Of a DNA stretch of 64,000 nucleotides, positions 14,333-47,270 are shown piece by piece; within the stretch, counting starts at the first letter, position 1; the number at the start of each line of letters is the position of its first letter. Source of the DNA: Streptomyces rapamycinicus NRRL 5491. Lineage in GTDB: Bacteria; Actinomycetota; Actinomycetes; Streptomycetales; Streptomycetaceae. The DNA lies in contig NZ_CP085193.1 of NCBI RefSeq assembly GCF_024298965.1, forward strand, positions 7,006,001-7,070,000, in the 5' to 3' direction. The notes below the pieces were generated by a model, which saw only the letters and a list, made by a program, of their open reading frames with translations, was not told the DNA's origin and ran no database searches. Position numbers and translations under genes: made by a program.

Positions 14333-14387
14333 CCATACGGGCCCGACCGGCCCGCCATACGGGCCCGACCCGTACAACTGAACGCCG

Positions 14388-14421
14388 AGGGCGTCCGCCA
14401 TCCGTGGGGCGGACGCCCTTA
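14388..14421 (+). terminator. Terminator after ndh
   Basis: AGGGCGTCCGCC pairs perfectly with GGCGGACGCCCT around an 8-base loop, about 55 bp after the ndh stop. Just before it, the segment CATACGGGCCCGACC occurs twice in direct orientation. Confidence 0.85.
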
Positions 14422-14564
14422 CGTCTGCCCTCGGACACCCTCCGATGGACCGCTTTTTAAAGCTGTTTTGCCGATTCCAGACGTGTCGGCGGGACTGTAC
14501 GGCGGGTCCCATGGTGTTTACGTGGTGAGTGAATCTTGTTGAGTCGCCATCACGGAGGTGCGAA

Positions 14565-15878
14565 ATGGCCGACGCCGCTGGGCGGATCGCCACCCTGGCC
14601 GAGGAGGTGCTGGGAACCCCCCTCCCGATCCGCGTCCGGGCCTGGGACCACAGCGAGACCGGTCCGCCCGGCGGACCCACCCTGGTCATCCGGCGCCGCC
14701 GGGCGCTGCGCAGGTTCCTGTGGCGGCCGGGCGAGCTGGGCCTGGCCCGCGCCTGGGTCGCCGGGGACCTCGACGTCGAGGGCGATCTGTACGACGCCCT
14801 GGACCGGCTGTCCGGACTGCTGTGGGAGCGCGACCCCGCCACCGCGCCGCGGTCCCGGCTCCGCACCGGCATCCAGGCGCTGCGCGACCCCGGGCTGCGC
14901 ACCGCCGCCCGGGAGATGATCGCGCTCGCCGGGCCGGGGCTGCCGCCGCCCCCGCCGCGCGAGGAGGCCAGGACCACCCTCGGTTCGCTGCACTCCCTGC
15001 GCCGCGACCGTAAGGCCATCAGCCACCACTACGACGTCGGCAACGACTTCTACGAGCTGGTGCTCGGCCCCTCGATGGTCTACTCCTGCGCCTACTGGGA
15101 CCGGGCGGACTCCACGCTGGAGGATGCCCAGCGCGCCAAGCTGGACCTGGTCTGCCGCAAGCTGGCCCTGCGGCCCGGCCAGCGGCTGCTGGACGTGGGA
15201 TGCGGCTGGGGCTCGATGGTGCTGCACGCGGCGCGCGAGTACGGGGTGCGCGCCGTCGGCATCACGCTCTCCGAGGAGCAGGCGGCGTACGCCCGTAAGC
15301 GCATCGCGGACGCCGGGCTCACCGACCAGGTGGAGATCCGGGTCCAGGACTACCGCGAGGTCCCGGACGGCCCCTACGACGCCATCTCCTCGATCGGCAT
15401 GGCCGAACACGTGGGCGCCGTGCGGTACGCCGAGTACACCGCCATCCTGCACCGGCTGCTGCGGCCCGGCGGGCGGCTGCTCAACCACCAGATCGCCCGG
15501 CGCCCCCAGCCGGACGAAGAGGCGTACCACGTGGACGAGTTCATCGACCGCTATGTCTTCCCCGACGGTGAGCTCGCCCCGGTCGGCCGGACCGTGGCCC
15601 AGCTGGAGGAGGCGGGCTTCGAGGTGCGCGACGTGGAGGCCATCCGCGAGCACTACGCGCTCACACTGCGCCGCTGGGTCGCCAACCTGGAGCGGTCCTG
15701 GACCCAGGGCGTGCGGCTGACCTCCCCGGGCCGGGCCCGGGTCTGGCGGCTCTACATGGCGGCCTCCGCCCTCTCCTTCGAGCGCAACCGGATCGGGGTC
15801 AACCAGGTCCTCGCCGTGCGCACCCCCGAGGGCGGGGCCTCGGGGCTTCCGCTGCGCACCCGCGACTGGCGCGGCTGA
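14565..15878 (+). CDS. Cyclopropane-fatty-acyl-phospholipid synthase family methyltransferase
   Basis: This is a 437-residue class I SAM-dependent methyltransferase of the CFA synthase family, which adds a methylene or methyl group across a double bond of phospholipid acyl chains. An N-terminal lipid-binding domain (about 1-150) precedes the catalytic domain. SISHHYDVGNDFYELVLGPSMVYSCAYW is the family signature. LLDVGCGWGSMVLHAA is the SAM-binding motif, followed by GITLSEEQAAYA, and the bicarbonate-pocket region reads SIGMAEHVGAVRYAEY. ATG 14565 follows a good GGAGGTG site. The gene stands alone between two strong hairpins. It could be a cyclopropanating or a 10-methyl/tuberculostearate-type enzyme; the sequence alone does not decide. 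Confidence 0.92.
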   Translation: MADAAGRIATLAEEVLGTPLPIRVRAWDHSETGPPGGPTLVIRRRRALRRFLWRPGELGLARAWVAGDLDVEGDLYDALDRLSGLLWERDPATAPRSRLRTGIQALRDPGLRTAAREMIALAGPGLPPPPPREEARTTLGSLHSLRRDRKAISHHYDVGNDFYELVLGPSMVYSCAYWDRADSTLEDAQRAKLDLVCRKLALRPGQRLLDVGCGWGSMVLHAAREYGVRAVGITLSEEQAAYARKRIADAGLTDQVEIRVQDYREVPDGPYDAISSIGMAEHVGAVRYAEYTAILHRLLRPGGRLLNHQIARRPQPDEEAYHVDEFIDRYVFPDGELAPVGRTVAQLEEAGFEVRDVEAIREHYALTLRRWVANLERSWTQGVRLTSPGRARVWRLYMAASALSFERNRIGVNQVLAVRTPEGGASGLPLRTRDWRG

Positions 15879-29979: not shown

Positions 29980-31428
29980 TCACCCGGACTCGGTGACGTA
30001 CGGACGGTCCGATGGTGGATCCGGGGTGAGGATCATGTGGTCCGGGACGTGGGCGGTGTCGCGGTGGGCCAGGAGCCAGTAGACGGCGGCGGGGACGGCG
30101 AGGCCGATGAGCCAGGAGATGTCCGCGCCGCCCAGGGGGGCGACGAAGGGGCCGGTGTAGAAGGCGGTGGACAGGAAGGGGAGTTGGGCGAGGACACCGA
30201 GGGCGTAGGTGGTCAGCGCCTTCCAGCGCCAGGCGCCGTAGCGGCCGTTCGGGTCGCTGAGGGCGGGGATGTCGTAGCGCTCCTTGGCGATGGCGTAGTA
30301 GTCGACGAGGTTGATCGCGCTCCACGGGGTGAAGAAGGTCAGCAGGAACAGCAGGAAGTCCTTGAAGGAGGACAGGAAGCTGTCCTTGCCGAGCAGTGCG
30401 ACCGCCGTGCCCGCGACCATGATCCCGGCGATGTAGGCGGCCCGGCCGCGTGGGGAGAGGGTGGCGCGGCCGCGGAAGCCGCTGACGCTGGTCACCATCG
30501 ACATGAAGCCGCCGTAGGTGTTGAGGACGTTGATCGTCAGCTTGCCGAGGGCGATGACGAAGTAGAGCAGCGAGGTGATCAGGGCCGCGCCGCCGCCGAG
30601 GCCGACGATGTACGTGACCTCGTGGCCGACGAAGGCGTGGCCGGCCGCGGCGGCCGCGAGGGCGCCGAAGGTCATGGACCACTGGGAGCCGAGGACGGTG
30701 CCGGCGAGGGTCCAGGAGAAGGTGGCCTTCGCGGAGGTGGTGCGCGGCAGATAGCGGGAGTAGTCGGCGACGTACGGGCCGAAGGCGAGCTGCCAGGAGG
30801 CGGACAGCGACACCGCGAGGAGGAAGAGCGGGAAGTCGAAGGTCCGGTCGTGGAGGAGGGTGGCCAGGTCGGTGCGGTCCAGCAGCCGGATGCCCAGATA
30901 GACGAAGGCCAGGGCGCAGACGACGCCCGCGATCCGGCCCAGGGTGTGGATCAGGCGGTAGCCGACGGCGGCCGCCACGGCGGTGACGAGGGCGAAGAGG
31001 ACGATCCCGGTGGTGTCGCCGAGATGGGTGAGTTCGCCGACCGCCTGTCCGGCGAGCACGCTGCCGCTGGCGAAGAAGCCCACGTACATGACGATGACCA
31101 GCAGCAGTGGGACGATCGCGCCCCGGACCCCGAACTGGGCCCGGGAGGAGATCATCTGGGGGAGGCCTAGTCGCGGTCCCTGGGCGGAGTGGAGCGCCAT
31201 GACGGCTCCTCCGAGCAGGTTGCCGATCAGCAGGGCGATGATCGCCCAGAAGGCGGCGGCGCCGAAGACGACGGCCAGGGCGCCGGTCACGACGGCGGTG
31301 ATCTGGAGGTTGGCGCCGAGCCACAGGGTGAACTGGCTGAAGGCGGTGCCATGGCGCTCCGCGTCCGGGACGACGTCGATCGAGCGCTTTTCGACCAAAG
31401 AGTCCAGCGCGTCCGGGGAGTCGGGCAT
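29980..31428 (-). CDS. NCS1-family nucleobase/cation permease
   Basis: This is a 482-residue protein with about 12 membrane helices. The NCS1 signatures are the N-terminal TLWLGANLQITAVVTGALAVVFG, then GPRLGLPQMISSRAQFGVRGAIVP, ASWQLAFGPYVADYSRYLP and FFTPWSAINLVDYYAIAKERYD. NCS1 carriers bring in cytosine, purines, allantoin, hydantoins or thiamine with H+ or Na+. It begins 16 bp after the stop of the lipoprotein gene of the ABC importer, so it is the last gene of that five-gene operon. This suggests that an imidazole- or hydantoin-like compound is imported together with the betaine-type substrate, but that is inference. ATG 31428 has a GGAG site. Confidence 0.85.
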   Translation of the reverse strand: MPDSPDALDSLVEKRSIDVVPDAERHGTAFSQFTLWLGANLQITAVVTGALAVVFGAAAFWAIIALLIGNLLGGAVMALHSAQGPRLGLPQMISSRAQFGVRGAIVPLLLVIVMYVGFFASGSVLAGQAVGELTHLGDTTGIVLFALVTAVAAAVGYRLIHTLGRIAGVVCALAFVYLGIRLLDRTDLATLLHDRTFDFPLFLLAVSLSASWQLAFGPYVADYSRYLPRTTSAKATFSWTLAGTVLGSQWSMTFGALAAAAAGHAFVGHEVTYIVGLGGGAALITSLLYFVIALGKLTINVLNTYGGFMSMVTSVSGFRGRATLSPRGRAAYIAGIMVAGTAVALLGKDSFLSSFKDFLLFLLTFFTPWSAINLVDYYAIAKERYDIPALSDPNGRYGAWRWKALTTYALGVLAQLPFLSTAFYTGPFVAPLGGADISWLIGLAVPAAVYWLLAHRDTAHVPDHMILTPDPPSDRPYVTESG

Positions 31429-31444: not shown

Positions 31445-32383
31445 CTACTTCTTGGTGAGGCCGTTCTTGGCGGCCCAGTCGGCGGCGACCCGGTCCGGGT
31501 CCTTCTTGTCGTTGCTCACCAGCTTGTTGAGCCGGGCCAGTTCGCGGGTGGTGAGGGCGCCGCCGAGGCGGGCCAGGGCCTTGCGGACCTTGGCGTCGGC
31601 CTTGGCGCCGCGGACCACGGGCACGATGTGCTGGGCCGGGATGAGGGCCTTGGGGTCGGCGAGGATCACCCAGTCGTTGGCCTCGATGTCGGGGTCGGTG
31701 GAGAAGAGGTTGGCGACGTCCACGTCGCCCTTCTTCAACGCGCCCTTGACCAGGGGCCCGGAGGCGTCGAGGGCCTTGAACTCCTTGAAGGTCACGCCGT
31801 AACGGTCCTTGAGGCCGACCAGGCCGACCACGCGGTTCTTGTCCTCGGCCGGGCCGCCGAAGATCAGCTTGCCGTTCTGCCTGGCGAGGTCGGCGAAGCT
31901 GCGCAGCCCGTACTTCCGGGCGGCCTCGCGGGTGACGCAGAAGACGTCCTTGTCCTCGGCGGCCGCGTACGACAGGGCCTCCAGACCGCTGGGGAGGGCC
32001 ACGGTGAGGGCGTTCTGGAGGTCGCCGGCCTCGGTCTGCGGGGCCTTGTCGTCGAAGTGGAGCAGCAGATTGCCCTGGTACTCGGGGAGCAGATCGATGT
32101 CGCCCTGCTGGAGGGCGGGTATGACGATCTCTCGGGAGCCGAGGTTGGGCCGCACGCTGGTCTTGATGCCCGCGCCCTTCAGCGCCTCGGCGTAGAGGTA
32201 GCCCAGCAGCTGGTTCTCGGTGAAGTTGGCGGTGCCGATGACCAGCCCGCCCAGGCTGCTGCCGCCGCCCGAGCCGCCGCTGCCGCCGTCGCCCTTGAGC
32301 GAGGTGATACCGCCGCCGCAGGCGGCGAGCGTGGGCACGGAGGCGCCGGCGAGCAGGCCGCCGAGCAGTTTCCTGCGGTTCAT
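31445..32383 (-). CDS. Quaternary-amine ABC transporter substrate-binding lipoprotein (OpuAC/OsmX-like)
   Basis: This is a 312-residue lipoprotein. The signal segment MNRRKLLGGLLAGASVPTLAAC has the lipobox cysteine, followed by a Gly/Ser linker. The binding domain (about 45-310) has the OpuAC/ProX features: VIGTANFTENQLLGYLYAEALKGAGI, LGSREIVIPALQQGDIDLLPEYQGNLLL, DVANLFSTDPDIEANDWVIL. Members bind glycine betaine, choline, carnitine and related trimethylammonium compounds in an aromatic cage; the exact ligand is not readable. ATG 32383 has GAGGAG at 8 bp. It is the fourth gene of the operon, after a 98-bp gap that contains tandem repeats. Confidence 0.9.
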   Translation of the reverse strand: MNRRKLLGGLLAGASVPTLAACGGGITSLKGDGGSGGSGGGSSLGGLVIGTANFTENQLLGYLYAEALKGAGIKTSVRPNLGSREIVIPALQQGDIDLLPEYQGNLLLHFDDKAPQTEAGDLQNALTVALPSGLEALSYAAAEDKDVFCVTREAARKYGLRSFADLARQNGKLIFGGPAEDKNRVVGLVGLKDRYGVTFKEFKALDASGPLVKGALKKGDVDVANLFSTDPDIEANDWVILADPKALIPAQHIVPVVRGAKADAKVRKALARLGGALTTRELARLNKLVSNDKKDPDRVAADWAAKNGLTKK

Positions 32384-32412
32384 GGGGTCGTCTCCTCGGA
32401 TCGGAGTGAAGT

Positions 32413-32477
32413 CGCTGAGTCGGTGGGGTGCTGAGGCGCTGAGCCGGGGGGCTGAGGCGCTGAGCCGGTGTGGGGTG
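32413..32477. repeat. Intra-operonic imperfect tandem repeat
   Basis: The segment GCTGAGGCGCTGAGCCGG with G/T-rich spacers occurs twice in full, with a third partial unit (GCTGAGTCGGTGGGGT). It lies in the gap between the second permease gene and the binding-protein gene. Such repeats can form RNA structure that adjusts the amount of binding protein relative to permease, or they may be neutral. Confidence 0.7.
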
Positions 32478-32481
32478 GCGC

Positions 32482-33159
32482 TCAGTGCGCGTGGGCGCGC
32501 GGGGGGCGGTTGCGGAACAGCAGGCGCTGCACTCCGGCCAGCGCCAGGTCCAGGGCGATGGCCAGCACGGCGACCAGCACCGCCCCGCCCAGCACCTGCA
32601 CCAGATCGCGCTGGGCGAGCCCGTCGAAGACATAGCGGCCGAGCCCGCCGAAGCTGACGTACGCGGCGATGGTGGCGGTGGCCACGACCTGGACGCAGGC
32701 CAGCCGCAGCCCGGTCATGATCAGCGGCAGCGCGAGCGGCAGTTCGACCTGGAACAGCACCTGGTACCAGCGCATGCCCTGGCCCCGCGCCGCGTCCCTG
32801 ACCTCGGGGTCCACGGCGGCCATGCCCGCGTACGTATTGGTGACGATCACCGGGACGGCGAGGGCGACCAGCGAGACGTACACCGGCCACATGCTCAGCC
32901 CGCTGGCCAGGAAGACCAGTGTGACCAGGCCGACGGTCGGCAGGGCCCGGCCGAAGCCGGAGAGGTTGATGGCGAGGAACGCGCCGCGCCCGGTGTGCCC
33001 GATGAGCAGCCCGACCGGGAGGGCGATGGCGGCGGCGACCAGGGTGGCCAGCAGCGAGTACTGGAGGTGCTCCAGCAGGCGGGTGGCGATGCCGTCGGGC
33101 CCGGACCACTGGGAGCCGCTGGTCAGCCAGCGGAGGAGGTTCTGGAGTAGTTCGAGCAT
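32482..33159 (-). CDS. Quaternary-amine ABC transporter permease (OpuCD/ProW-like), second
   Basis: This 225-residue inner-membrane permease has about five to six helices and the binding-protein-dependent transport motif: AAVDPEVRDAARGQGMRWYQVLFQVELPLALPLIMTGLRL (EAA loop). It starts LQYSLLATLVAAAIALPVGLLIGHTGRG. The ATG at 33159 was chosen, 1 bp after the stop of the preceding permease, because GGAGG then lies 10 bp upstream; a GTG three codons earlier has no space for a ribosome site. With the other permease it forms the heterodimeric channel of the importer. The C-terminus is basic (RNRPPRAHAH). Confidence 0.9.
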   Translation of the reverse strand: MLELLQNLLRWLTSGSQWSGPDGIATRLLEHLQYSLLATLVAAAIALPVGLLIGHTGRGAFLAINLSGFGRALPTVGLVTLVFLASGLSMWPVYVSLVALAVPVIVTNTYAGMAAVDPEVRDAARGQGMRWYQVLFQVELPLALPLIMTGLRLACVQVVATATIAAYVSFGGLGRYVFDGLAQRDLVQVLGGAVLVAVLAIALDLALAGVQRLLFRNRPPRAHAH

Positions 33160-33160
33160 G

Positions 33161-33802
33161 TCAGGCACGCCTCCTCAGCCACGGGGTGCACAGCCACTGG
33201 ATGGTGACCAGTACGGCGTCCGCGACCAGCGCCAGCACCAGGGACAGGATGACTCCGGCCACGACGGGGGTGGGGTAGTTGCGCTGGAAGCCGTCGGTGA
33301 ACAGCTGGCCGAGGCCGCCGTACCCGATGTAGCTGGCCACGCTGACCAGCGATATCGCCATAACGGTGGCGACCCGTACGCCCGCCATGATCACCGGGAA
33401 GGCGAGCGGCAGCTCGACGGTGAGCAGGGTGCGCAGCGGGCGGGCGCCCATCGCGGTGGACGCCTCGCGGACCTTGGTGGGGACGCTGTCGAGGCCTTCG
33501 ACGGTGTTCCGCAACAGCACGACCAGGGTGTAGATGGTCAGGCCGGTGATGGCGGTGGTGCGGGTGAGGCCGGTGACCGGCAGCAGCAGGACGAAGATCG
33601 CGATGGAGGGGATCGTGAACAGGATGTTCGAGAGCCCGAGCAGGAGTCCGCGCAGCGGGCGCACCCGGTGGGCGATCACGGCCAGCGGGAGCGCGATCAG
33701 CAGGCCGAAGAGGACGGCCGGGACGGCGGTGGAGAGGTGGTCCAGGGTGAGCGTGACCAGGGTGCTCCGGTGATCGGGGAACCAGCCCCAGTCGATGGTC
33801 AT
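33161..33802 (-). CDS. Quaternary-amine ABC transporter permease (OpuCB/ProW-like), first
   Basis: This is a 213-residue membrane permease. The N-terminus begins MTIDWGWFPDHRSTLVTLTLDHLSTAVPAVLFGLLIALPLAV. The EAA-type cytoplasmic loop is SVPTKVREASTAMGARPLRTLLTVELPLAFPVIMAGVRVATV, followed by LVSVASYIGYGGLGQLFTDGF, typical of OpuCB/ProW proteins. The ATG overlaps the stop of the ATPase gene (ATGA), and the next permease starts right after its own stop, so the set is translationally coupled. The protein sits in the plasma membrane and pairs with the other permease. Confidence 0.9.
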   Translation of the reverse strand: MTIDWGWFPDHRSTLVTLTLDHLSTAVPAVLFGLLIALPLAVIAHRVRPLRGLLLGLSNILFTIPSIAIFVLLLPVTGLTRTTAITGLTIYTLVVLLRNTVEGLDSVPTKVREASTAMGARPLRTLLTVELPLAFPVIMAGVRVATVMAISLVSVASYIGYGGLGQLFTDGFQRNYPTPVVAGVILSLVLALVADAVLVTIQWLCTPWLRRRA

Positions 33803-34938
33803 GCGGTCACGCTCGGGTCGGAGGCCGTGGTGCCGTCGCCCGCGTCGGCGGTTTCGGGGTCCTCGGCGGCGTTCTTGAGGGCGGCCGCGCGGCCCGCCTC
33901 CGTGTGGCGCTGCCCCGCGTACTCGTGGATCGCGTCGCGCCCGGTGACCCCGGTGAGCACCCCGTCGGCGTCCACGCGGGCCACCAGACCGGCGGGGGAG
34001 GCCAGCGACTCGTCCAGGGCGGTGAGCAGCGAGTCGCCGTCCCGCAGCGCGCGCACCGGCAGCAGCGGGGCCCGGTCGCCCTCCGGTCCTTCGGTGTCGC
34101 GCCAGCCCAGCGGCTCACCGCGCTCGGAGGTGACCAGCTGCCAGCGCTGCCCGTCGGCGGGCGCGGGCTCCCGCTCCACGTCGGCGAGGGTGGACAGGGA
34201 GAGCAGCTTCAGCCCGCGCTCGGCGCCCAGGAAGCCCGCCACGAAGTCGTCGGCGGGGCTCGCCAGCAGCTCGGCGGGGGGTGCGCACTGGACGAGATGG
34301 CCGCCGGTGCGGAAGATCGCGATGCGGTCGCCGAGCCGTACCGCCTCGTCGATGTCGTGGGTGACGAAGACGACCGTCTTGCGCAGCTCGCTCTGGAGCC
34401 GCAGCAGCTCGTTCTGGAGCTGGGTCCGTACGACCGGGTCGACCGCCCCGAACGGCTCGTCCATCAGCAGCACCGGCGGGTCGGCGGCCAGTGCGCGGGC
34501 GACCCCGACGCGCTGCTGCTGACCGCCCGAGAGCTGGTGCGGGTAGCGCTTGCCGGAGTCGGCGGGCAGCCCGACCAGCTCCAGCAGCTCGGCGGCGCGG
34601 GCCCGCGCCTTGCGGCGCCCCCAGCCCAGCAGCAGCGGGACGGTGGCGATGTTGTCGAGGATCGTGCGGTGCGGGAAGAGCCCGGCCTGCTGGATCACAT
34701 AGCCGATCCCGCGCCGCAGCTCGGCGGCGTCCGCTCGCAGGACATCACGTCCGCCCACGCTCACCGTGCCGCTGCTCGGCTCGACCATGCGGTTGACCAT
34801 GCGGAGGGTGGTGGTCTTGCCGCAGCCCGAGGTGCCGACAAGAACGGTGATGCCTCCTTCCGGGAGTTCGAGACTGAGGCGATCCACCGCTGTGGTGCCG
34901 TTCGGGTAGTGCTTACTGACGTCCTTGAAGCTGATCAT
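33799..34938 (-). CDS. Quaternary-amine ABC transporter ATP-binding protein (OpuCA/ProV-like)
   Basis: This is a 379-residue ATPase and the first gene of the importer operon. It has Walker A LVGTSGCGKTTTLRM, the Q loop IGYVIQQAGLFPHRTILDN, the signature LSGGQQQRVGVARAL, Walker B PPVLLMDEPFGAVDP and the H loop FVTHDIDEA. The C-terminal third is a regulatory region with a CBS-like segment (DSLLTALDESLASPAGLVARVDADGVLTGVTGRDAIHEYAG), as in OpuCA, where it gates transport by ionic strength. ATG 34938 is preferred (MISFKDVSKHYPNG, with AAGGGGAAG upstream) over an ATG 11 codons earlier. It is divergent from the HAL-like gene. Confidence 0.92.
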   Translation of the reverse strand: MISFKDVSKHYPNGTTAVDRLSLELPEGGITVLVGTSGCGKTTTLRMVNRMVEPSSGTVSVGGRDVLRADAAELRRGIGYVIQQAGLFPHRTILDNIATVPLLLGWGRRKARARAAELLELVGLPADSGKRYPHQLSGGQQQRVGVARALAADPPVLLMDEPFGAVDPVVRTQLQNELLRLQSELRKTVVFVTHDIDEAVRLGDRIAIFRTGGHLVQCAPPAELLASPADDFVAGFLGAERGLKLLSLSTLADVEREPAPADGQRWQLVTSERGEPLGWRDTEGPEGDRAPLLPVRALRDGDSLLTALDESLASPAGLVARVDADGVLTGVTGRDAIHEYAGQRHTEAGRAAALKNAAEDPETADAGDGTTASDPSVTA

Positions 34939-35100
34939 CCGCTTCCCCTTGCCCTGTCTGCATATAGTCATGCACAGTCATAGTCGAGTGAATAGAAGTC
35001 AAGAGGGTCTGCGTTAATCACCGGTTACTTCTGCTCGCGATGTGGACGGAGTGCTGGGCGGTTGGCCCAGAAAGGGCGCGTTCGAGAGGGGTTGCCCTGG
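34939..35100. promoter_or_regulatory. Divergent promoter region with inverted repeat
   Basis: This 162-bp region lies between the ABC importer operon and the HAL-like gene. It is AT-richer than its surroundings. An inverted repeat TGCAT-N6-ATGCA is at 34959-34974, inside a patch with repeated AGTCAT. It is a plausible operator for the RpiR-type regulator encoded downstream of the HAL-like gene, which would then control both sides. Confidence 0.4.
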
Positions 35101-36627
35101 ATGTTGTCTCACATGCTGGATGCTGATCACGCGGCGGCCGACGGCGCCGACGGCGCCGGCCCGCGGATCACGCTGGACGGCCGGAGCCTACGCGTCGTGG
35201 ATGTGGCGCGTCTGGCCGACCGTCTCAGCCGGCCCGCCGCGCCCGATCCCACCGCGCTCGCCCTGGCCGAGCGTGCCTGGGAGACTGCGGACCGGCTCGC
35301 GGCCACCGGCCGCGTCTACGGGCGCAGCACCGGTGTGGGCGCCAACCGCACCGAGGACGTCGGCCCGGCCGACTCCGACCACGGGCTGCGGCTGCTGCGC
35401 AGCCACGCCGGGGCGATCGGCGCACAGCTGCCCGGCCGCGAGGTGCGCGCCATGATGGCCGTCCGCGCCAATCAGCTGCTGGCGGGTGGTGCCGGGCTGC
35501 GCCCCGCCGTCGTCACCGCGCTCGTCGAGGGCCTCGACAGCGGCGCCCACCCGGTGATCAACGAATACGGCGCGGTCGGCACCGGGGACCTCGCCGCGCT
35601 CGCCCAGACCGGTCTGGCGCTCGTCGGCGAGCACCCCTGGGACCTCACCGAGGCCGTCCCGGGCCGTCGCGCCCCCGACCCCATCACGCTCGACAGCAAC
35701 GACGCCCTGGCGCTCATCAGCAGCAACGCCCTCACCCTCGGCCAGTCCGCGCTCGCCCTCGCCGAGCTGCGGCGGCTGCTGTCCGCCTCGCTCGCCGTGG
35801 CCGCGCTCTCGCTGATCGCGGTCGGCGGCTCGTACGAGGCGTACGCCGAACCCGTCCACGCGTCCCGGCCGCACCCCGGCTCCGTCGCGGCCGCCGCCCG
35901 GATGCGCGCCCTGCTCGGCGCCCCGCCCCGGCCCACCCCGCCGCTGGGCCGCATCCAGGACCCGTACGGCTTCCGCTGTCTGCCGCAGATCCACGGACCG
36001 GCGCTGGACGCGGCGGACGCGCTGGAGCGGGTGCTGGCCGTCGAGTTCAACGCGGCCGCCGAGAACCCGCTGATCAGCTCCACCGACGAGGCCGCCTACC
36101 ACCACGGCAACTTCTACGCCGCGCACACCGCCCTCGCCCTGGACCACTTCCGGCTCGCCGCGCTCCAGACCGCCCGGCTCTCCACGGCCCGGCTCGCCGC
36201 GCTCAGCGAACCCGACTTCACCCGGCTGCGCCCCTTCCTCGGTGACGCCGCGCCCGCGAGCTCGGGCGTGATGATCCTCGAATACGCGGCGGGGGCTGCT
36301 CTCGGCGAGATGCGGGCGGTCTCCCACCCCGCCTCGCTGGGCCACGCCGTGCTCTCGCGCGGGGTGGAGGAACAAGCCAGTTTCGCCTCGCTCGGCGCCC
36401 GCCAGACGCTGCGGGTGGCCGACCACTACCGGCTGGTGCTGGGCTGCGAACTCGTGGCGGCCATACGGGCGTTGCGCCAGCGCGGTCTTGAGCCGGACCC
36501 GGAGCTCCCGGCCGGTGTGGCCTTCGCCCTGGCGTCGGAAGTGCTCGATCCGCGGATGGAGGACCGGCCGTTGACGGAGGATGTGGCGGTGGCCGCGCGT
36601 CTGCTCGACCGGCTGGCGGGGGCCTGA
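35101..36627 (+). CDS. Histidine ammonia-lyase homologue with altered MIO triad (Gly-Thr-Gly)
   Basis: This is a 508-residue member of the aromatic amino acid lyase family. Conserved active-site parts are VYGRSTGVGANR (catalytic Tyr region), PHPG..GRIQDPYGFRCLPQIHG (Tyr and Arg), FNAAAENPLIS, and SRGVEEQASFAS (Glu). However, the segment that forms the MIO cofactor, normally ASGDLAPL, reads GTGDLAAL (triad at 35578-35586, residues 160-162), so the Ala-Ser-Gly cyclisation is not expected. It may therefore not be an ordinary HutH. HAL homologues without MIO are known that eliminate trimethylamine from ergothioneine, and the divergent operon here imports quaternary amines. The start is uncertain: ATG 35101 follows GAGAGGGG, with alternatives at 35062 and 35113. 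An RpiR regulator follows after 31 bp. Confidence 0.8.
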   Translation: MLSHMLDADHAAADGADGAGPRITLDGRSLRVVDVARLADRLSRPAAPDPTALALAERAWETADRLAATGRVYGRSTGVGANRTEDVGPADSDHGLRLLRSHAGAIGAQLPGREVRAMMAVRANQLLAGGAGLRPAVVTALVEGLDSGAHPVINEYGAVGTGDLAALAQTGLALVGEHPWDLTEAVPGRRAPDPITLDSNDALALISSNALTLGQSALALAELRRLLSASLAVAALSLIAVGGSYEAYAEPVHASRPHPGSVAAAARMRALLGAPPRPTPPLGRIQDPYGFRCLPQIHGPALDAADALERVLAVEFNAAAENPLISSTDEAAYHHGNFYAAHTALALDHFRLAALQTARLSTARLAALSEPDFTRLRPFLGDAAPASSGVMILEYAAGAALGEMRAVSHPASLGHAVLSRGVEEQASFASLGARQTLRVADHYRLVLGCELVAAIRALRQRGLEPDPELPAGVAFALASEVLDPRMEDRPLTEDVAVAARLLDRLAGA

Positions 36628-36658
36628 GGGACGAGGGTACGAGGGTCAGGAGGACGTG

Positions 36659-37603
36659 ATGAGTACGGAGCACGGGGTGAGCGACGGGGTGGGCGGTGCG
36701 CGGGTGACGCAGGTGGAAGAGGACGTCACGGCGGTGTCGGCGGGGGTGCCGGGCGTCTCGGCCGCTTCCGGCGCCTCGACCGCCGCCCGGCTGCAGGCGC
36801 TCTTCGAGGGCCACCGGCTGACCCCGACCCAGCGGCGGATCGCCCACTGCATGGTGCGGCGGGCCGCGGACGCGCCGTTCCTCTCCAGCGTCGAGCTGGC
36901 CGAGCTCGCGGGCGTCAGCCAGCCGTCCGTGACCCGCTTCGCGGTCGCCCTCGGCTTCGACGGCTATCCGGCGCTGCGCAAGCATCTGCGCGATGTCGCG
37001 CCCGCCGAGCCGGAGGCGGACGAGGGGTCGTACAACGAGTATCAGCAGGCCGTGCAGTCCGAGATCGACAATCTGCGCCATCTCGCCGCGCTGCTGGCCG
37101 ACCCCGCCCCGGTCGTCCGCGCCGGCCGGCTGCTCGCCGAGTCCCGTCCGCTGCCGGTCCTCGGGCTGCGCGCCGCCTCCGCGCAGGCCCGCGGCTTCAG
37201 CTACTTCGCGCGCAAGGTCCATCCGGACGTCCGGCTGCTCGACGAGGGCGGCACGATGCTCGACGACCGCGTGGACGCGGCGAAGCGCGCGGGCGCCACG
37301 GCGCTGCTGTGCTTCGCGCTGCCGCGGCATCCGCGCGAGGTCGTGGAGGGACTGGAGTACGCCCAGGAGGCGGGCCTGACCGTGGTCACCGTCGCCGACA
37401 GCGCCTTCGCCCCGGTCGCCCGCCACAGCGATCTGCTGCTGCCCGCGGCTGTCGGCACGGGCCTGGCCTTCGACACCGCGTGTGCGCCGATGCTGCTGGG
37501 GCGCGTGCTGCTGGAGGCGATGTGCGACGCGCTGCCGGACGCGCAGGCGCGGCTGGAGGAGTTCGACGCGAAGGCGGCGGAGCGGGGCCTGTTCGTGGAG
37601 TGA
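36659..37603 (+). CDS. MurR/RpiR family transcriptional regulator
   Basis: This is a 314-residue regulator. A low-complexity start (about 1-40) precedes the RpiR helix-turn-helix domain: LTPTQRRIAHCMVRRAADAPFLSSVELAELAGVSQPSVTRFAVALGFDGYPALRKHLRD (about 55-115). A SIS sugar/phospho-metabolite-binding domain follows (about 145-290), with VLGLRAASAQARGFSYFARKVHPDVRLLDEGG and TALLCFALPRHPREVVEGLEYAQEAGLTVVTVAD. The ATG has CAGGAGGAC upstream and lies 31 bp after the HAL-like gene, so the two are probably cotranscribed. It is a good candidate for local control of the HAL-like gene and the divergent importer. Its effector is unknown; it need not be a sugar. Confidence 0.9.
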   Translation: MSTEHGVSDGVGGARVTQVEEDVTAVSAGVPGVSAASGASTAARLQALFEGHRLTPTQRRIAHCMVRRAADAPFLSSVELAELAGVSQPSVTRFAVALGFDGYPALRKHLRDVAPAEPEADEGSYNEYQQAVQSEIDNLRHLAALLADPAPVVRAGRLLAESRPLPVLGLRAASAQARGFSYFARKVHPDVRLLDEGGTMLDDRVDAAKRAGATALLCFALPRHPREVVEGLEYAQEAGLTVVTVADSAFAPVARHSDLLLPAAVGTGLAFDTACAPMLLGRVLLEAMCDALPDAQARLEEFDAKAAERGLFVE

Positions 37604-38912: not shown

Positions 38913-40268
38913 CTACCGCAACCGGCTCAGACCCAGCGCGTGCTTCGCGCCGCTCTCGGCCACGATCTCGTCCACCGTCTGCGGCTCCCGTACCGTCGCG
39001 AAGCGCACATCGGCGCTCGTCGCGTCGAAGCCGTAGATCCCCGGGCGGGGCAGGCTGTTGTACGCGAAGTGGTTGGAGAAGTAGTACGCGCCGGTGTCGA
39101 GCAGGGCGACCAGGTCGCCCGCCGCCAGCTCCGGCAGTGGCCGGTCGCGTGCGACCAGGTCGCCCGCGAAGCAGCAGGGACCGGCGATGTCCTGGGGGAC
39201 CGGGCCGTCGCCGGTCTCCGCCTTGGGGCGGCCCTCCGCGTCGTAGGCCAGGACGCGCAGCGGCCAGGCTTCCGGAGCGAAGACCGTACGGGTGGCGAGC
39301 TGGGCGCCCGCGTGGGTGACCGCGATCGGGCGGCCGCCCGCGGACTTGGCGTATTCGACCCGGGCCAGCACCAGGCCGGACTTGGCGAGCAGGGACCGTC
39401 CGAACTCGGTCACCAGCTTGTACCGCCCGTCGAGGAGCCCCGGCACGGTGGCCCGCAGCAGCTGGGCGTACTCCCGGTAGCCGGGGGTGATCTCGTCGGA
39501 GGCGAAGTTCACGGGGAGGCCGCCGCCGATGTCGAGGGCGTCGATCTGCTGCCGGCCGGCCGCCTCGTTGATCTCCTCGGCCAGTTCGTAGGCCGCCCGT
39601 ATGCCCGCCGCCATCAGCTCCAGCGGACAGCCCTGGGAGCCGACGTGCGCGTGCAGCCGGGTCAGCCACGGGCGCTCGGCGAAGGCGCGCACGACCCACG
39701 CGCGCGCCCCCGGGTCCTGGAGGGCCACGCCGAACTTGGAGGTCGCGGTGGCCGTGCTCATCGCGTCGATGCTGCCGCCGCCCACCTGCGGGTTGACCCG
39801 AAGGCCCAGGGGCGAGGGCGGGGCCGCGCGGTGCCCCACCAGCGCGTCGAGCCGCTCCAGCTCCTGGGGGTTGTCGGCGTTGACGGCGATGCCCAGGTCG
39901 AGGGCCTCGCGCAGCTCAGCGGTGGTCTTGGCGGGGGAGTCCAGGACGATCCGGTCGGGCGTCACCCCCGCCGCACGGGCCAGCGCCAGTTCGCCGGGGC
40001 TGGCCACCTCGCAGCCCAGGCCCTCGTCGGCCAGCAGCCGCAGGACGGGGACGAGCGCGGCCGCCTTGACCGCGAAGGCGTGCAGGACGGGGGTGCCGGG
40101 CGCGACGACCTCCTCGAAGGCCTCGCGCAGCCCGGCGGCCGCGGAGCGGATCCCGGCCACGTCCAGCAGCCCCACGACGGGCTGGTCCGGGCCCAGCAGC
40201 CGCTGCTCCACGGCCGCCCGTACGGCCTGTTCGCGCCGGGTGGCCATCGCAACCGCTTTCAAAGTCAT
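38913..40268 (-). CDS. Fold-type III PLP decarboxylase (diaminopimelate decarboxylase-like)
   Basis: This is a 451-residue protein of the alanine racemase-fold decarboxylases. The PLP lysine is in HAFAVKAAALVPVLRLLADEGLGCEVASPGEL. The barrel has HAHVGSQG, LDIGGGLPVNF (phosphate-binding Gly loop) and VTEFGRSLLAKSG in place of the usual EPGR. The C-terminal domain has CCFAGDLVARDR (catalytic Cys region, CxxxD) and GAYYFSNHFAYNSLPRPGIYGF (Tyr at the dimer interface). It is more distant than housekeeping LysA, so substrates such as a modified diamino acid are possible. The start is uncertain: ATG 40268 and ATG 40247 are both weakly supported. It is transcribed in the same direction as the MDR gene upstream (111-bp gap) and towards the palindromic element. 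Confidence 0.82.
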   Translation of the reverse strand: MTLKAVAMATRREQAVRAAVEQRLLGPDQPVVGLLDVAGIRSAAAGLREAFEEVVAPGTPVLHAFAVKAAALVPVLRLLADEGLGCEVASPGELALARAAGVTPDRIVLDSPAKTTAELREALDLGIAVNADNPQELERLDALVGHRAAPPSPLGLRVNPQVGGGSIDAMSTATATSKFGVALQDPGARAWVVRAFAERPWLTRLHAHVGSQGCPLELMAAGIRAAYELAEEINEAAGRQQIDALDIGGGLPVNFASDEITPGYREYAQLLRATVPGLLDGRYKLVTEFGRSLLAKSGLVLARVEYAKSAGGRPIAVTHAGAQLATRTVFAPEAWPLRVLAYDAEGRPKAETGDGPVPQDIAGPCCFAGDLVARDRPLPELAAGDLVALLDTGAYYFSNHFAYNSLPRPGIYGFDATSADVRFATVREPQTVDEIVAESGAKHALGLSRLR

Positions 40269-40379
40269 GCTTTCAGCCAACCATCCGGAACGGCCGCGGA
40301 CCAGCTCCGGGGGGCGCTCCGGCGGGCGGGGCCGTGCGGTCGCGGGGAGCGCGGCCCCTGGCCCCGGGCCGACCCGGCC

Positions 40380-41624: not shown

Positions 41625-43286
41625 ATGACAGGACCGCGACCCGTACGGGCGCCGCGTGGTGCAGAGCTCAGCGCCCTTGGGTGGCAGCAGGAAGCCGCCC
41701 TTCGGATGCTGCAGAACAACCTCGATCCGGAGGTCGCCGAGCACCCCGACAAGCTCGTCGTCTACGGCGGCACCGGTAAGGCGGCCCGCGACTGGCGTTC
41801 GTTCGACGCCATGGTCCGCACCCTGCGCACGCTGAAGCAGGACGAGACGATGCTGGTCCAGTCGGGCCGCCCCGTGGGCGTCATGCAGACCCACGAATGG
41901 GCGCCTCGGGTGCTGATCGCCAACTCCAACCTCGTCGGCGACTGGGCCAACTGGGAGGAGTTCCGCCGCCTGGAGGCGCTGGGTCTGACCATGTACGGCC
42001 AGATGACCGCCGGCTCCTGGATCTACATCGGCACCCAGGGCATCCTCCAGGGCACGTACGAGACCTTCGCCGCGGTCGCCGCGAAGAAGTTCAGCGGTAC
42101 CTTGGCCGGGACGATCACCCTCACCGCGGGCCTCGGCGGCATGGGCGGCGCCCAGCCGCTGGCGGTCACGATGAACGACGGCGTCGCGATCTGCGTCGAC
42201 TGCGATCCGCGCGCCATCGAGCGCCGTATCGAACACCGCTACCTGGACGTCCGCGCCGACAGCCTGGACCACGCGCTCCAGCTCGCGACCGAGGCCCGGG
42301 ACGCCCGGCGACCCCTGTCGATCGGCGTGCTGGGGAACGCGGCCGAACTGGTCCCGCAGCTCCTCGCGATGAACGCCCCGATCGACATCGTCACCGACCA
42401 GACCAGCGCCCACGACCCGCTGTCGTACCTGCCGGTCGGCGTGGACTTCGACGAGATGGCCTCGTACGCCACCGAGAAGCCCGCCGACTTCACCCAGCGG
42501 GCGCGCGAGTCGATGGCCAAGCACGTGGAGGCCATGGTCGGCTTCATGGACGCGGGCGCCGAGGTCTTCGACTACGGCAACTCCATCCGCGGCGAGGCAA
42601 AGCTGGCGGGCTTCGAGCGGGCCTTCGCCTTCCCCGGCTTCGTCCCCGCCTACATCCGGCCGCTCTTCTGCGAGGGCAAGGGCCCGTTCCGCTGGGCGGC
42701 CCTGTCCGGCGACCCGAAGGACATCGCCGCCACGGACAAGGCGATCCTGGAGCTCTTCCCGGAGAACGAGTCGCTGGCCCGCTGGATCAAGATGGCGCAG
42801 GAGCGGGTCCACTTCCAGGGGCTGCCCGCCCGGATCTGCTGGCTCGGCTACGGCGAGCGCGACAAGGCGGGCGAGCGCTTCAACGAGATGGTCGCCGACG
42901 GCACCCTCGCCGCACCGCTGGCGATCGGCCGCGACCACCTCGACTGCGGCTCGGTGGCCTCCCCGTACCGCGAGACCGAGGCCATGCTGGACGGCTCGGA
43001 CGCGATCGCCGACTGGCCACTGCTCAACGCCATGGTCAACGTCGCCTCGGGCGCCTCCTGGGTCTCCATCCACCACGGCGGCGGCGTCGGCATGGGCCGC
43101 TCGATCCACGCGGGGCAGGTCACGGTCGCCGACGGCACGGCGCTCGCGGGCGAGAAGATCCGCCGCGTTCTGACGAACGACCCCGGCATGGGCGTCATCC
43201 GCCACGTGGACGCGGGCTACGACCGAGCGGACGAGGTAGCGGAGGAGCGGAACGTCAGGATCCCCATGAGGGAGAAGGATAAGTGA
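41625..43286 (+). CDS. hutU: Urocanate hydratase
   Basis: This 553-residue enzyme converts urocanate to imidazolone propionate, the second step of histidine breakdown, with tightly bound NAD+. It has [26 protein letters not shown] near the N-terminus, [26 protein letters not shown], the NAD-domain run [23 protein letters not shown], and the urocanase signature [19 protein letters not shown]. The length is normal for the family. ATG 41625 has GGGAGG at 8 bp. It is the first gene of a four-gene operon and overlaps the next by 4 bp. HutH proper is not in this window; in S. coelicolor I recall it elsewhere (SCO4932). Confidence 0.97.
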
Positions 43287-44605
43287 CCGTTGTGGGCAAT
43301 CGTTCCGCGGGGCGGAACGGGTGGGCACAACCCGGCCACCGGGCCGCACCCGCACACGAAACGGAGGCTGAGACGGGCGTGGGCGCACCCAGCACAACCG
43401 GCGCGTCGTTCCACGACATGTGGCGCGACCTGGCCCCCGTCGGCCGCAACACGACAACAAACGGCTACCGCCGCTACGCCTGGACAGACGCGGACGCCGA
43501 CTGCAGAACGTGGTTCAAGGAGCAAGCCCAGAACCGCGGCCTCACCTACGAAGTGGACCGCAACGGCAACCAATGGGCCTGGCTGGGCGACCCCACCGCA
43601 GGAGACGCCGTCGTCACCGGTTCCCACCTCGACTCCGTCCCCGACGGTGGCGCCTTCGACGGCCCGCTGGGCGTCGTCTCCTCCTTCGCCGCCCTCGACG
43701 GGCTACGAGCGCGGGGCGCCCGCCCCACCAGGCCGCTCGCCATCGTCAACTTCGGCGACGAGGAGGGCGCCCGCTTCGGTCTGGCCTGCGTCGGCTCCCG
43801 GCTGACGAGCGGGCAGCTCAGCGTCGCGCAGGCGCATGAGCTGCGGGACGCGGACGGGGTGAGCCTCCCCCGGGCGATGGAGCGCGCCGGTTACGACCCG
43901 GACGCCATCGGCCCCGACCCGGAGCGGCTGGCCCGCATCGGCGCGTTCGTCGAGCTGCACATCGAGCAGGGGCGCGCCCTCGCCGACACAGACGACCCCG
44001 TTGGTGTCGCCTCCGCGATCTGGCCGCACGGCCGCTGGCGGTTCGACTTCCACGGCGAGGCCAACCACGCCGGGACCACCCGGATCGAGGACCGCCGCGA
44101 TCCGATGCTCACCTATGCCAACACCGTCCTCGCCGCCCGTAAGAAGGCGAAGCTCGCCGGGGCGCTGGCGACCTTCGGCAAGGTCAGCGTCGAGCCCAAC
44201 GGGGTCAACGCGATCGCGAGCCTGGTCCGCGGCTGGCTGGACTCGCGCGCGGCCGACGAGGAGACCCTGGCCGCCGTGGTCGGCGAGATCGAGCGTGCCG
44301 CGGTCGAGCGCGGACAGCGGGACGGGGTGGACGTCCGGGTCACCCGGGAGTCCTTCACTCCGGTCGTCGAGTTCGCCCACGACCTGCGTGACCAGCTCTC
44401 GGGGCTGCTCGGCGGCGTCCCGATCCTCCCCACCGGGGCCGGGCACGACGCCGGCATTTTGTCCGCGTCGGTTCCGACGGCCATGCTGTTTGTAAGGAAC
44501 CCCACCGGCGTCTCGCATTCACCCGCGGAGACGGCGGGCGAGGACGATTGCCTCGCCGGTGTGGCCGCGCTCGCGGAGGTACTGGAGGGCCTGGCGTGTC
44601 ACTGA
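43283..44605 (+). CDS. M20-family amidohydrolase in the hut operon (annotated type: allantoate amidohydrolase)
   Basis: This 440-residue zinc-dependent enzyme belongs to the M20 carbamoylase/allantoate amidohydrolase family. The metal ligands are in [34 protein letters not shown] and [11 protein letters not shown]; the dimerisation domain has [17 protein letters not shown], and the final ligand is in [12 protein letters not shown]. It has an extra Ala/Gly-rich N-terminus of about 45 residues. GTG 43283 overlaps the hutU stop, behind GGGAGAAGG. It sits between hutU and hutF, while no hutG of the usual fold is in the operon. It is therefore a good candidate for the N-formylglutamate amidohydrolase of the Streptomyces pathway, releasing glutamate and formate. 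This role is inferred from position. Confidence 0.88.
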
Positions 44606-46047
44606 CGGCGCAGACGTACTGGGCGGAGCACGCCTGGGTGGACGGAAGCGTGCGGTCGGACGTGGTGATCGTGGCCGCGGCCAATGGGCGGATCACGGCG
44701 GTGGTGCCCGGGAGTCCGCGGCCACCCGCCGGGTCCGTCACCCTCCGTGGTCTGACGCTCCCCGGTCTGGCCAACGCCCACAGCCACGCCTTCCACCGGG
44801 CCCTGCGCGGTGTCGTCCAGGCGGACAGCAGGGCGAACGGTACGACGAACGGCGAAACGGGAGGCGAGACCGGAGACGGGGCGAACGCCCAGGCGGAAGG
44901 CAACGCGGACAGCGGCAATGGCGCGCCGGACTCCTTCTGGACCTGGCGCGAGGTGATGTACGGCGTCGCCGACCGGCTGACCCCGGACAGCTACTTCGAG
45001 CTGGCCCGAGCCGTCTACGCCGAGATGGCCATGGCCGGGATCACCTGCGTCGGGGAGTTCCACTACCTCCACCACGCGCCCGGCGGCGCCCGCTACGGCA
45101 ACCCCAACGCGATGGGGGAGGCCCTGATCGCGGCCGCGGCCGAGGCCGGTATCCGGATCACCCTGCTCGACACCTGCTATCTCTCCTCCGGTTTCGGGGC
45201 CGAGCCCAACGAGCACCAGCTGCGCTTCTCCGACGGCACGGCCGAGGCCTGGGCCGAGCGGGTCTCCGCGCTGAAGGGCGACGGCAACACCCGCATCGGC
45301 GCGGCGATCCACTCGGTGCGGGCCGTACCCGTCGACCAGCTGGCGACCGTGTCCGGCTGGGCCGACGAGCACACGGCGCCGCTGCACGTCCACCTCTCCG
45401 AGCAGACGGCGGAGAACGACGCCTGTGTGGAGGCACACGGCTTCACCCCCACCCGGCTGCTCGCCGACCACGGGGTGCTGGGCCCGCGGACCACCGCCGT
45501 GCACGCCACCCACCTCACCCCGGGCGACATCCGGCTGCTGGGCCACGCCGCCACCGGTGTCTGTATGTGCCCGACCACCGAGCGTGACCTCGCCGACGGG
45601 ATCGGCCCGGCCGTCGAGCTGCAGAGTGCGGGCTCACCGCTCTCGCTGGGCAGCGACAGCCATGCCGTGATCGACATCCTGGAGGAGGCCCGCGCCATGG
45701 AGCTGGACGAGCGGCTGCGCACCCGCGCCCGGGGCCACTGGACCGCGGCCCAGCTGCTCCGGGCCGCCACCGCGGACGGTCATGCGGCGCTCGGCTGGGG
45801 CGCGGAGGCGGGCCGGATCGAGGTGGGCGCGCTCGCCGACCTCACCACGATCGCGCTGGACTCGGTGCGCACCGCGGGGCCACCGCCCCGGCTGGGCGCG
45901 GAGACCGCCGTATTCGCGGCGACCAGCGCGGATGTCCGGCACACCGTGGTCGGCGGCCGCCACGTCGTACGGGACGGCGCCCATCAGCTCGTCCCGCGTG
46001 TGCCGCAAGCGCTGGCCGAGGCCATCGAAGCCCTGCACGGACCGTGA
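44596..46047 (+). CDS. hutF: Formimidoylglutamate deiminase
   Basis: This is a 483-residue amidohydrolase-superfamily enzyme that converts N-formimino-L-glutamate to N-formyl-L-glutamate and ammonia. Metal-binding and active-site motifs are [50 protein letters not shown] and [20 protein letters not shown]. An unusual low-complexity insertion rich in Asn, Gly, Thr, Glu and Ala (about residues 77-112, 44824-44931) follows the first metal motif. GTG 44596 overlaps the previous gene by 10 bp. Its presence indicates the two-step deiminase/amidohydrolase route and not the direct formiminoglutamase route. Confidence 0.93.
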
Positions 46048-46091
46048 TCCGGCCGCTACCGGCACGGCCGACGAAGGAGAGCACCCCCACG

Positions 46092-47270
46092 ATGACGACC
46101 GCGACGCCCACGACGGCCATCACCGACATCGCCACTCTGGTCACCAATGACCCCTCCCTCGGTGAAGGCCCCCTCGGTCTGATCCGGGACGCGGCCGTCG
46201 TCATCGGCGGCGACCGCATCGCCTGGGTCGGTGAGTCCAGCAAAGCACCCGCCACCGACAATCGGGTCGACGCCGGTGGCCGGGCGGCCATTCCGGGCTT
46301 TGTGGACTCCCACTCCCATCTGGTCTTCGCGGGCGACCGGACCGAGGAGTTCAACGCCCGGATGTCCGGCCGCCCGTACAGCGCGGGCGGGATCCGCACC
46401 ACCGTGGCCGCCACCCGCGCCGCCTCGAACAACGTGCTGCACGCCAACGTCGGCCGCTATGTGGCCGAGGCGCGCCGCCAGGGCACCACGACCGTCGAGA
46501 TCAAGTCCGGCTACGGGCTGACCTCGCACGACGAGGCCCGCGCCCTGACCATCGCCGGTGCCCACACCGACGAGGTGACCTTCCTCGGGGCGCATATCGT
46601 CGCGCCCGAGTTCGCCGACGACCCGGCCGCGTACGTGGATCTGGTCACCGGCCCGATGCTGGACGCCTGCGCCCCGCACGCCCGCTGGATCGACGTCTTC
46701 TGCGAGCAGGGAGCCTTCGACGGCGACCAGGCCCGCGCCGTCCTGACCGCGGGCAAGGAGCGCGGGCTGATCCCGCGGGTCCACGCCAACCAGCTCTCCT
46801 ACGGCCCCGGGGTGCGACTGGCGGTGGAGCTGGGCGCCGCCTCGGCCGACCACTGCACCCATCTGACCGAGGAGGACGTCGACGCGCTGGCCCAGGGCGA
46901 GACGGTGGCCACCCTGCTCCCCGGGGCGGAGTTCTCCACCCGCTCGACCTATCCGGACGCGCGCCGGCTGCTCGACGCGGGCGTCACGGTCGCCCTGTCC
47001 CCGGACTGCAACCCGGGCTCGTCCTTCACCAGCTCCATGCCGTTCTGTGTCGCCCTGGCCGTACGGGAGATGGGGATGACGCCGGACGAGGCGGTGTGGG
47101 CCGCGACGGCCGGTGGGGCGAGGGCCCTGCGCCGTACCGACGTGGGCCGGGTGAGCCCGGGCGCCCGCGCCGATCTGGCGCTGCTGGACGCCCCGTCCCA
47201 TGTGCACCTCGCCTACCGCCCCGGCATGCCCCTGGTCTCGGCGGTGTGGCACGAGGGCACCCTGATCTGA
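46092..47270 (+). CDS. hutI: Imidazolonepropionase
   Basis: This 392-residue metal-dependent amidohydrolase opens imidazolone propionate to N-formimino-L-glutamate, the third step of histidine degradation. Motifs: [25 protein letters not shown] (first metal histidines and substrate loop), [44 protein letters not shown] and [17 protein letters not shown]. The ATG has GGAGAG upstream, 44 bp after hutF, so it is the last gene of the hutU-M20-hutF-hutI operon. A bidirectional hairpin terminator separates it from the convergent sigma factor gene. The gene order differs from the pathway order, which is usual. Confidence 0.96.

Follow-up and report, generated by a model that had tools for sequence, protein, structure and literature searches.

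A predicted MIO-free hercynine trimethylamine-lyase of the histidine ammonia-lyase family in Streptomyces rapamycinicus

We analysed a 64,000-nucleotide stretch, hereafter the window, of the 12.47 Mb genome of Streptomyces rapamycinicus NRRL 5491 (contig NZ_CP085193.1, positions 7,006,001 to 7,070,000). It encodes a protein of the histidine ammonia-lyase (HAL) family, here called AAL, whose active-site loop does not contain the tripeptide from which HAL makes its methylideneimidazolone (MIO) cofactor. Judging from sequence, AAL is quite likely a MIO-free hercynine trimethylamine-lyase that gives urocanate, and it lies outside the clade of ergothionase-type proteins that we sampled. AAL would take the beta proton from hercynine (N-alpha-trimethylhistidine) and expel trimethylamine, and HutU, HutI, HutF and AllC-type enzymes, whose genes lie a few kilobases off, would carry the urocanate on to glutamate. 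A divergently encoded OpuC-type importer would bring in a quaternary amine, either hercynine or ergothioneine. Many relatives have genes nearby for an ergothioneine dioxygenase and an amidohydrolase, the latter probably a sulfinate desulfinase, and these enzymes would convert ergothioneine to hercynine ahead of AAL. The host module would act on hercynine itself, since the host lacks the genes for these two enzymes.

Results

AAL has a shortened loop without the MIO tripeptide

The AAL open frame (35062-36627, forward strand) encodes 521 residues from a TTG; homologues favour an ATG at 35101, giving about 508. In profile searches the protein is a full-length aromatic lyase (PF00221, 374.7 bits), and it scores 291 bits against the NCBIfam hutH model TIGR01225, far under the cut-off of 539. 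The original prediction, made from this DNA alone, described a HAL homologue without Ala-Ser-Gly, and the triad positions (35578-35586) do read Gly-Thr-Gly. Alignment to the P. putida HAL shows that GSVGASGD has become GAVGTGD, a one-residue deletion and not a plain substitution. The same 7-residue loop (8 residues from G to D in HAL) is present in all 173 AALs compared: the 120 closest among the homologues listed and all 53 of a more distant set. Because the loop is one residue short, MIO cannot form as in HAL. AAL thus lacks the Ala(Cys)-Ser-Gly within an 8-residue loop that marks MIO-dependent HAL and phenylalanine (PAL) and tyrosine ammonia-lyases, and has the shortened loop without the tripeptide that marks ergothionase.

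Much of the remaining active site is retained. The window AAL keeps equivalents of HAL Tyr53, His83, Gln277, Tyr280, Arg283, Phe329 and Glu414 (HAL numbering). The Tyr, Tyr/Arg and Glu segments had already been noticed, and that reading stands; it had passed over the loss of HAL Asn195, where LLNGT is replaced by LISSN. Across the 173 AALs the catalytic Tyr and Arg positions are invariant and the Glu is present in 172, with a gap in the other; His and Glu of HAL type, which would be expected to bind the imidazole, are also kept. Since the residues for the imidazole and the carboxylate are of HAL type, a histidine betaine is the expected substrate. Elimination from such a betaine should need no electrophile, because trimethylammonium is a good leaving group; ergothionase offers a precedent. 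The only other PF00221 gene in the host genome is of HutH type with Cys-Ser-Gly and lies about 46 kb from AAL, outside the window.

Variants of the gene were seen elsewhere. In six genomes (G275, G360, G368, G370, G413 and G553) AAL carries an in-frame stop and may be a decaying copy. A second AAL subfamily in Streptomyces (L098, L100, L101, L105, L121, L123, L128 and L129; 48-59% identity) has the short loop too; a binding-protein gene adjoins it in most, and importer ATPase and permease genes lie some 5-8 kb off in several. Locus L127 encodes another HAL-like protein (13473-14942, reverse strand, 489 residues) with a broken MIO segment, GSGA-AGE, and a very long tree branch; it adjoins an ornithine-cyclodeaminase-like gene, with AAL and HutU nearby.

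AAL forms a clade of its own

We placed AAL (34 rows) in a tree with HutH (8 rows) and ergothionase-type proteins (9 rows, relatives of the Treponema denticola enzyme, without the Burkholderia enzyme and without PAL clades). AAL is a separate clade with support of 100/98. It falls outside the HutH clade (98/96), as the original prediction would have it, and outside the ergothionase-type clade (100/100).

Gene neighbourhood in the window

The importer genes and AAL diverge from a common intergenic region (Table 1). The divergent importer, the NCS1 permease, the RpiR regulator and the nearby hutU that had been named from the sequence were all recovered from open reading frames and profiles. The RpiR gene is probably co-transcribed with AAL and may regulate the module. 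At the far end of the importer, 16 bases with no gene between them separate the NCS1 gene from the binding-protein gene.

Table 1 Features of the AAL locus in the window.
Feature	Position	Strand	Basis
NCS1-family permease	29980..31428	-	PF02133
Substrate-binding lipoprotein, OpuAC-type; start maybe a few codons further in	31445..32413	-	PF04069, 170.8 bits
Importer permease B, choline/ProW-like	32482..33168	-	PF00528
Importer permease A, ProW-like	33161..33802	-	PF00528
Importer ATPase, ProV/OpuA-type	33799..34971	-	TIGR01186, 302.3 bits, under the cut-off of 326.6
Intergenic region between divergent importer and AAL	34972..35100		gene layout
AAL, HAL-family MIO-free lyase (predicted hercynine trimethylamine-lyase)	35101..36627	+	open frame from TTG 35062
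Loop GAVGTGD where HAL has GSVGASGD; shorter by one residue, lacks the MIO tripeptide	35569..35589	+	alignment
RpiR/MurR-type regulator, 31 bases past AAL	36659..37603	+	PF01418
HutU urocanate hydratase, sole genome copy, about 5 kb past AAL	41625..43286	+	TIGR01228, 907.7 bits, cut-off 375
AllC-like amidohydrolase of the hut operon	43283..44605	+	NF006770, 672.5 bits, cut-off 372
HutF formimidoylglutamate deiminase	44548..46047	+	TIGR02022, 524 bits, cut-off 413
HutI imidazolonepropionase	46044..47270	+	open reading frame; assigned by eye and position, co-located homologues

By its profile scores the host's single HutU is a true urocanate hydratase: it stays under the cut-offs of the models for thiourocanate hydratase (655 against 930) and its S-methyl form (699 against 880). 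The host genome also encodes EgtD, through which it can probably make hercynine. Two further genes of the window were noted. The AllC-type protein of the hut operon is an allantoate amidohydrolase by profile, yet is placed in the formimidoylglutamate route. Between the lyase cluster and hutU lies a gene for a pyridoxal phosphate-dependent decarboxylase of the ornithine/diaminopimelate/arginine family (38913-40280, reverse strand), found at 55 of the 80 Streptomyces loci described below.

AAL loci in Streptomyces and beyond

For Streptomyces we compared the best 80 of 543 AAL-bearing stretches from named genomes; several end at contig edges, so locus counts are lower bounds. Five named species (L003-L007) have AALs that match the window AAL at 98-99% identity in the best segment. 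A full importer is divergent to AAL at 56 of 80 loci, and RpiR (74/80), HutU (61/80) and NCS1 (30/80) genes recur. Ten loci, for example in S. lydicus, S. nigrescens, S. rimosus and S. chattanoogensis, have genes for an amidohydrolase and the ergothioneine dioxygenase homologue no more than 10 kb from AAL. Where such loci retain the importer, the pair sits beyond it (6/6) and NCS1 adjoins the pair in four of the six; at L014, L017, L018 and L050 the pair lies between NCS1 and the importer. All three pair-bearing loci with frames listed have a LacI-like regulator gene after the amidohydrolase. Three loci (L034, L057 and L068) carry an importer-AAL-NCS1 unit without hut or RpiR in the examined stretch, and in L034 and L057 a nearby gene resembles a xanthine-dehydrogenase iron-sulfur subunit.

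Outside Streptomyces we examined 49 loci, chosen by AAL match and genus spread and not by their neighbours: 10 of 17 regions of one set, after excluding seven Streptomyces regions, and 39 of 40 of another, the fortieth being the host's own egt region. These loci are not independent, since one family supplies most of them. Counting genes within about 10 kb of AAL, and calling an importer when at least three of its four genes were present, we found the importer at 21 loci, HutU at 14 and HutH at 7. The co-occurrence of importer and lyase in other genomes, which the original prediction implied, is therefore seen both here and in Streptomyces. An amidohydrolase was near AAL at 23 of the 49 loci, a LacI-type gene at 26, EgtD at 8, and EgtA together with EgtB at 6. 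A dioxygenase was present at 26; it is either that of L115 (Thermomonospora) or 61-85% identical to it, and is a homologue of the crystallised ergothioneine dioxygenase (PDB 8qfl-8qfr). Of the four features importer, dioxygenase, HutU and EgtD, one or more occur at 42 of the loci, and two or more at 15.

Two loci are the most complete. L115 runs AllC, HutU, HutH, IclR, importer, AAL, LacI, amidohydrolase, dioxygenase, EgtD, EgtB, EgtA, with EgtA, EgtB, EgtD, HutH and HutU each above its NCBIfam cut-off. L174, from another class, has RpiR, HutH, importer, AAL, AllC, HutU, HutF and HutI on one strand. AAL is thus linked to the expected hercynine-making and urocanate-using genes, though not at every locus.

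A genome search of the host found neither the dioxygenase nor its partner amidohydrolase; the closest dioxygenases were cysteine dioxygenases at 35-43% identity, which leads us to regard the host lineage as lacking the pair. Loss of the pair in that lineage is probably the simplest account.

Discussion

We favour hercynine over ergothioneine as the substrate because in many relatives an ergothioneine dioxygenase homologue and an amidohydrolase stand beside AAL, and because the host's sole HutU is a true one. The original prediction had left both open as ergothioneine/hercynine. Its central idea, that a MIO-free HAL homologue eliminates trimethylamine from an imported histidine betaine and feeds the hut pathway, is largely borne out, though only indirectly, by clade, active site and gene neighbourhood; to it we add the preference for hercynine and the position of AAL outside the ergothionase-type clade sampled. 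A true ergothionase would make trimethylamine and thiourocanate from ergothioneine, and the host would have to handle the thiourocanate by some other route. We think this reading of AAL unlikely. Apart from the separate clade, the loop Glu found in 118 of 120 ergothionase-type sequences is Thr or Ile in all 173 AALs, and the Lys found in 115 of 120 (383 in the aligned chain) is Tyr in 172 of 173. In ergothionase this Lys has a catalytic role. The host would moreover meet thiourocanate with a HutU under both thiourocanate hydratase cut-offs, and in many relatives the neighbouring dioxygenase system would strip the sulfur ahead of the lyase.

Slightly less probable again is action on another N-methylated aromatic amino acid, such as dimethylhistidine, ring-methylated histidine betaines, or tyrosine or tryptophan betaine, with the link to hut merely locational. 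The presence of both an NCS1 permease and an OpuC importer suggests more than one imported compound; the loci without any linked gene (see below) point the same way. Against it stand the retained His and Glu and the way in which, across several genera, AAL recurs with hutU, with egt genes and with the homologue of ergothioneine dioxygenase. A modified MIO made from Gly-Thr-Gly, or ammonia-lyase or aminomutase activity through a novel electrophile, would suit the HAL fold and the several HAL catalytic residues that are kept, but is very improbable given the uniformly short loop, the altered Asn195 region and a host that already has HutH; in addition, ergothionase is reported to be without MIO (PMC13405746). 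A non-catalytic or sensory role for AAL, as the lost electrophile and the adjoining RpiR gene might suggest, is scarcely credible beside the near-complete conservation of Tyr, Arg and Glu and the recurring linkage to import and catabolic genes.

Several observations nevertheless weigh against a hercynine lyase fed by this importer and by ergothioneine breakdown. After removal of one of 17 dioxygenase matches, at 43%, AAL is absent from 8 of 16 dioxygenase genomes. The dioxygenase is absent from 15 of 23 AAL genomes, the host included (the loop was read in 22 of these; G208 was assigned on score only, 960 bits), and in three of the eight genomes with both the two lie on different contigs. Importer, dioxygenase, HutU and EgtD are all absent at 7 of the 49 non-Streptomyces loci, two of which sit on contigs shorter than 7 kb. 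In Streptomyces the full importer is absent from the examined stretch at 24 of 80 loci, partly through missing sequence, and four of these carry the dioxygenase; there the link to hut may simply reflect common descent, and some loci have AAL and importer away from hut. The binding protein's best solved relative is EgtUC (E 2.9e-23, 86.0 bits; Lmo1422 reaches 84.7), with EgtUC, Lmo1422 and ProX all within 7 bits, and two relatives' binding proteins best match those of acetylcholine/nicotine sensors. The grouping of AAL and ergothionase as sisters is weak (91/54). Finally, the structure comparison proposed with the original prediction gives a HAL fold, but the fold match fails to tell ergothionase from HAL.

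On balance, we lean towards a broader proposal: an Actinomycetota-wide family of hercynine trimethylamine-lyases that completes an aerobic route from ergothioneine to glutamate through import, dioxygenase, desulfination, MIO-free lyase and ordinary Hut enzymes, with the host a hercynine scavenger whose lineage probably lost the sulfur-removing half. To our knowledge, including the titles of PDB entries, aerobic ergothioneine breakdown in actinobacteria is known just to the dioxygenase and desulfinase. Neither a hercynine lyase nor such a cluster turned up in the open-access literature searched, and an earlier description is possible.

Ergothioneine attracts study both for its antioxidant role and as a diet-derived compound. 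If the proposal is true, soil bacteria could degrade it fully to glutamate, a dedicated hercynine lyase would link its breakdown to central metabolism, and it would be clear why an ordinary HutU suffices. Because the AAL family also occurs in ergothioneine makers, these could turn it over as needed. The soil would have an unrecognised source of trimethylamine, AAL would be a second natural example of the HAL fold active without its cofactor, and many database entries that now carry the name of a histidine or aromatic amino acid ammonia-lyase would need correction.

Comparison with known systems

The closest parallel is ergothionase of T. denticola (PDB 6s7j/6s7q), which has the HAL fold and the same one-residue deletion in the loop. 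The two share GVG and mostly S-x-N-A motifs and a catalytic Glu followed by D/E-x-A, and elimination of trimethylamine is expected of both. They differ in that identity is 25% and the clades are separate: AAL has Thr for the loop Glu and Glu-Tyr for Gln-Lys, and the HAL Tyr280 position is mostly Tyr or Phe in AALs and Leu or Ile in ergothionase. HutH (P. putida, PDB 1b8f, and the host's own) resembles AAL in fold and in the Tyr53, His83, Gln277, Arg283 and Glu414 equivalents, and urocanate would be their common product. AAL differs from it in lacking Ala/Cys-Ser-Gly and Asn195, in its clade and in scoring under the hutH cut-off.

Like EgtU/OpuC quaternary-amine importers, the window importer is made up of an ATPase, permeases and a binding protein of OpuAC type. 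In EgtU the permease and the binding protein are fused, whereas the window has separate genes for them. The actinobacterial ergothioneine dioxygenase system, in which a desulfinase step reportedly follows the dioxygenase and yields N-alpha-trimethylhistidine, would supply AAL's proposed substrate, and many relatives encode homologues of its dioxygenase close to AAL; AAL is neither of that system's two enzymes, and the host has neither the dioxygenase nor the amidohydrolase.
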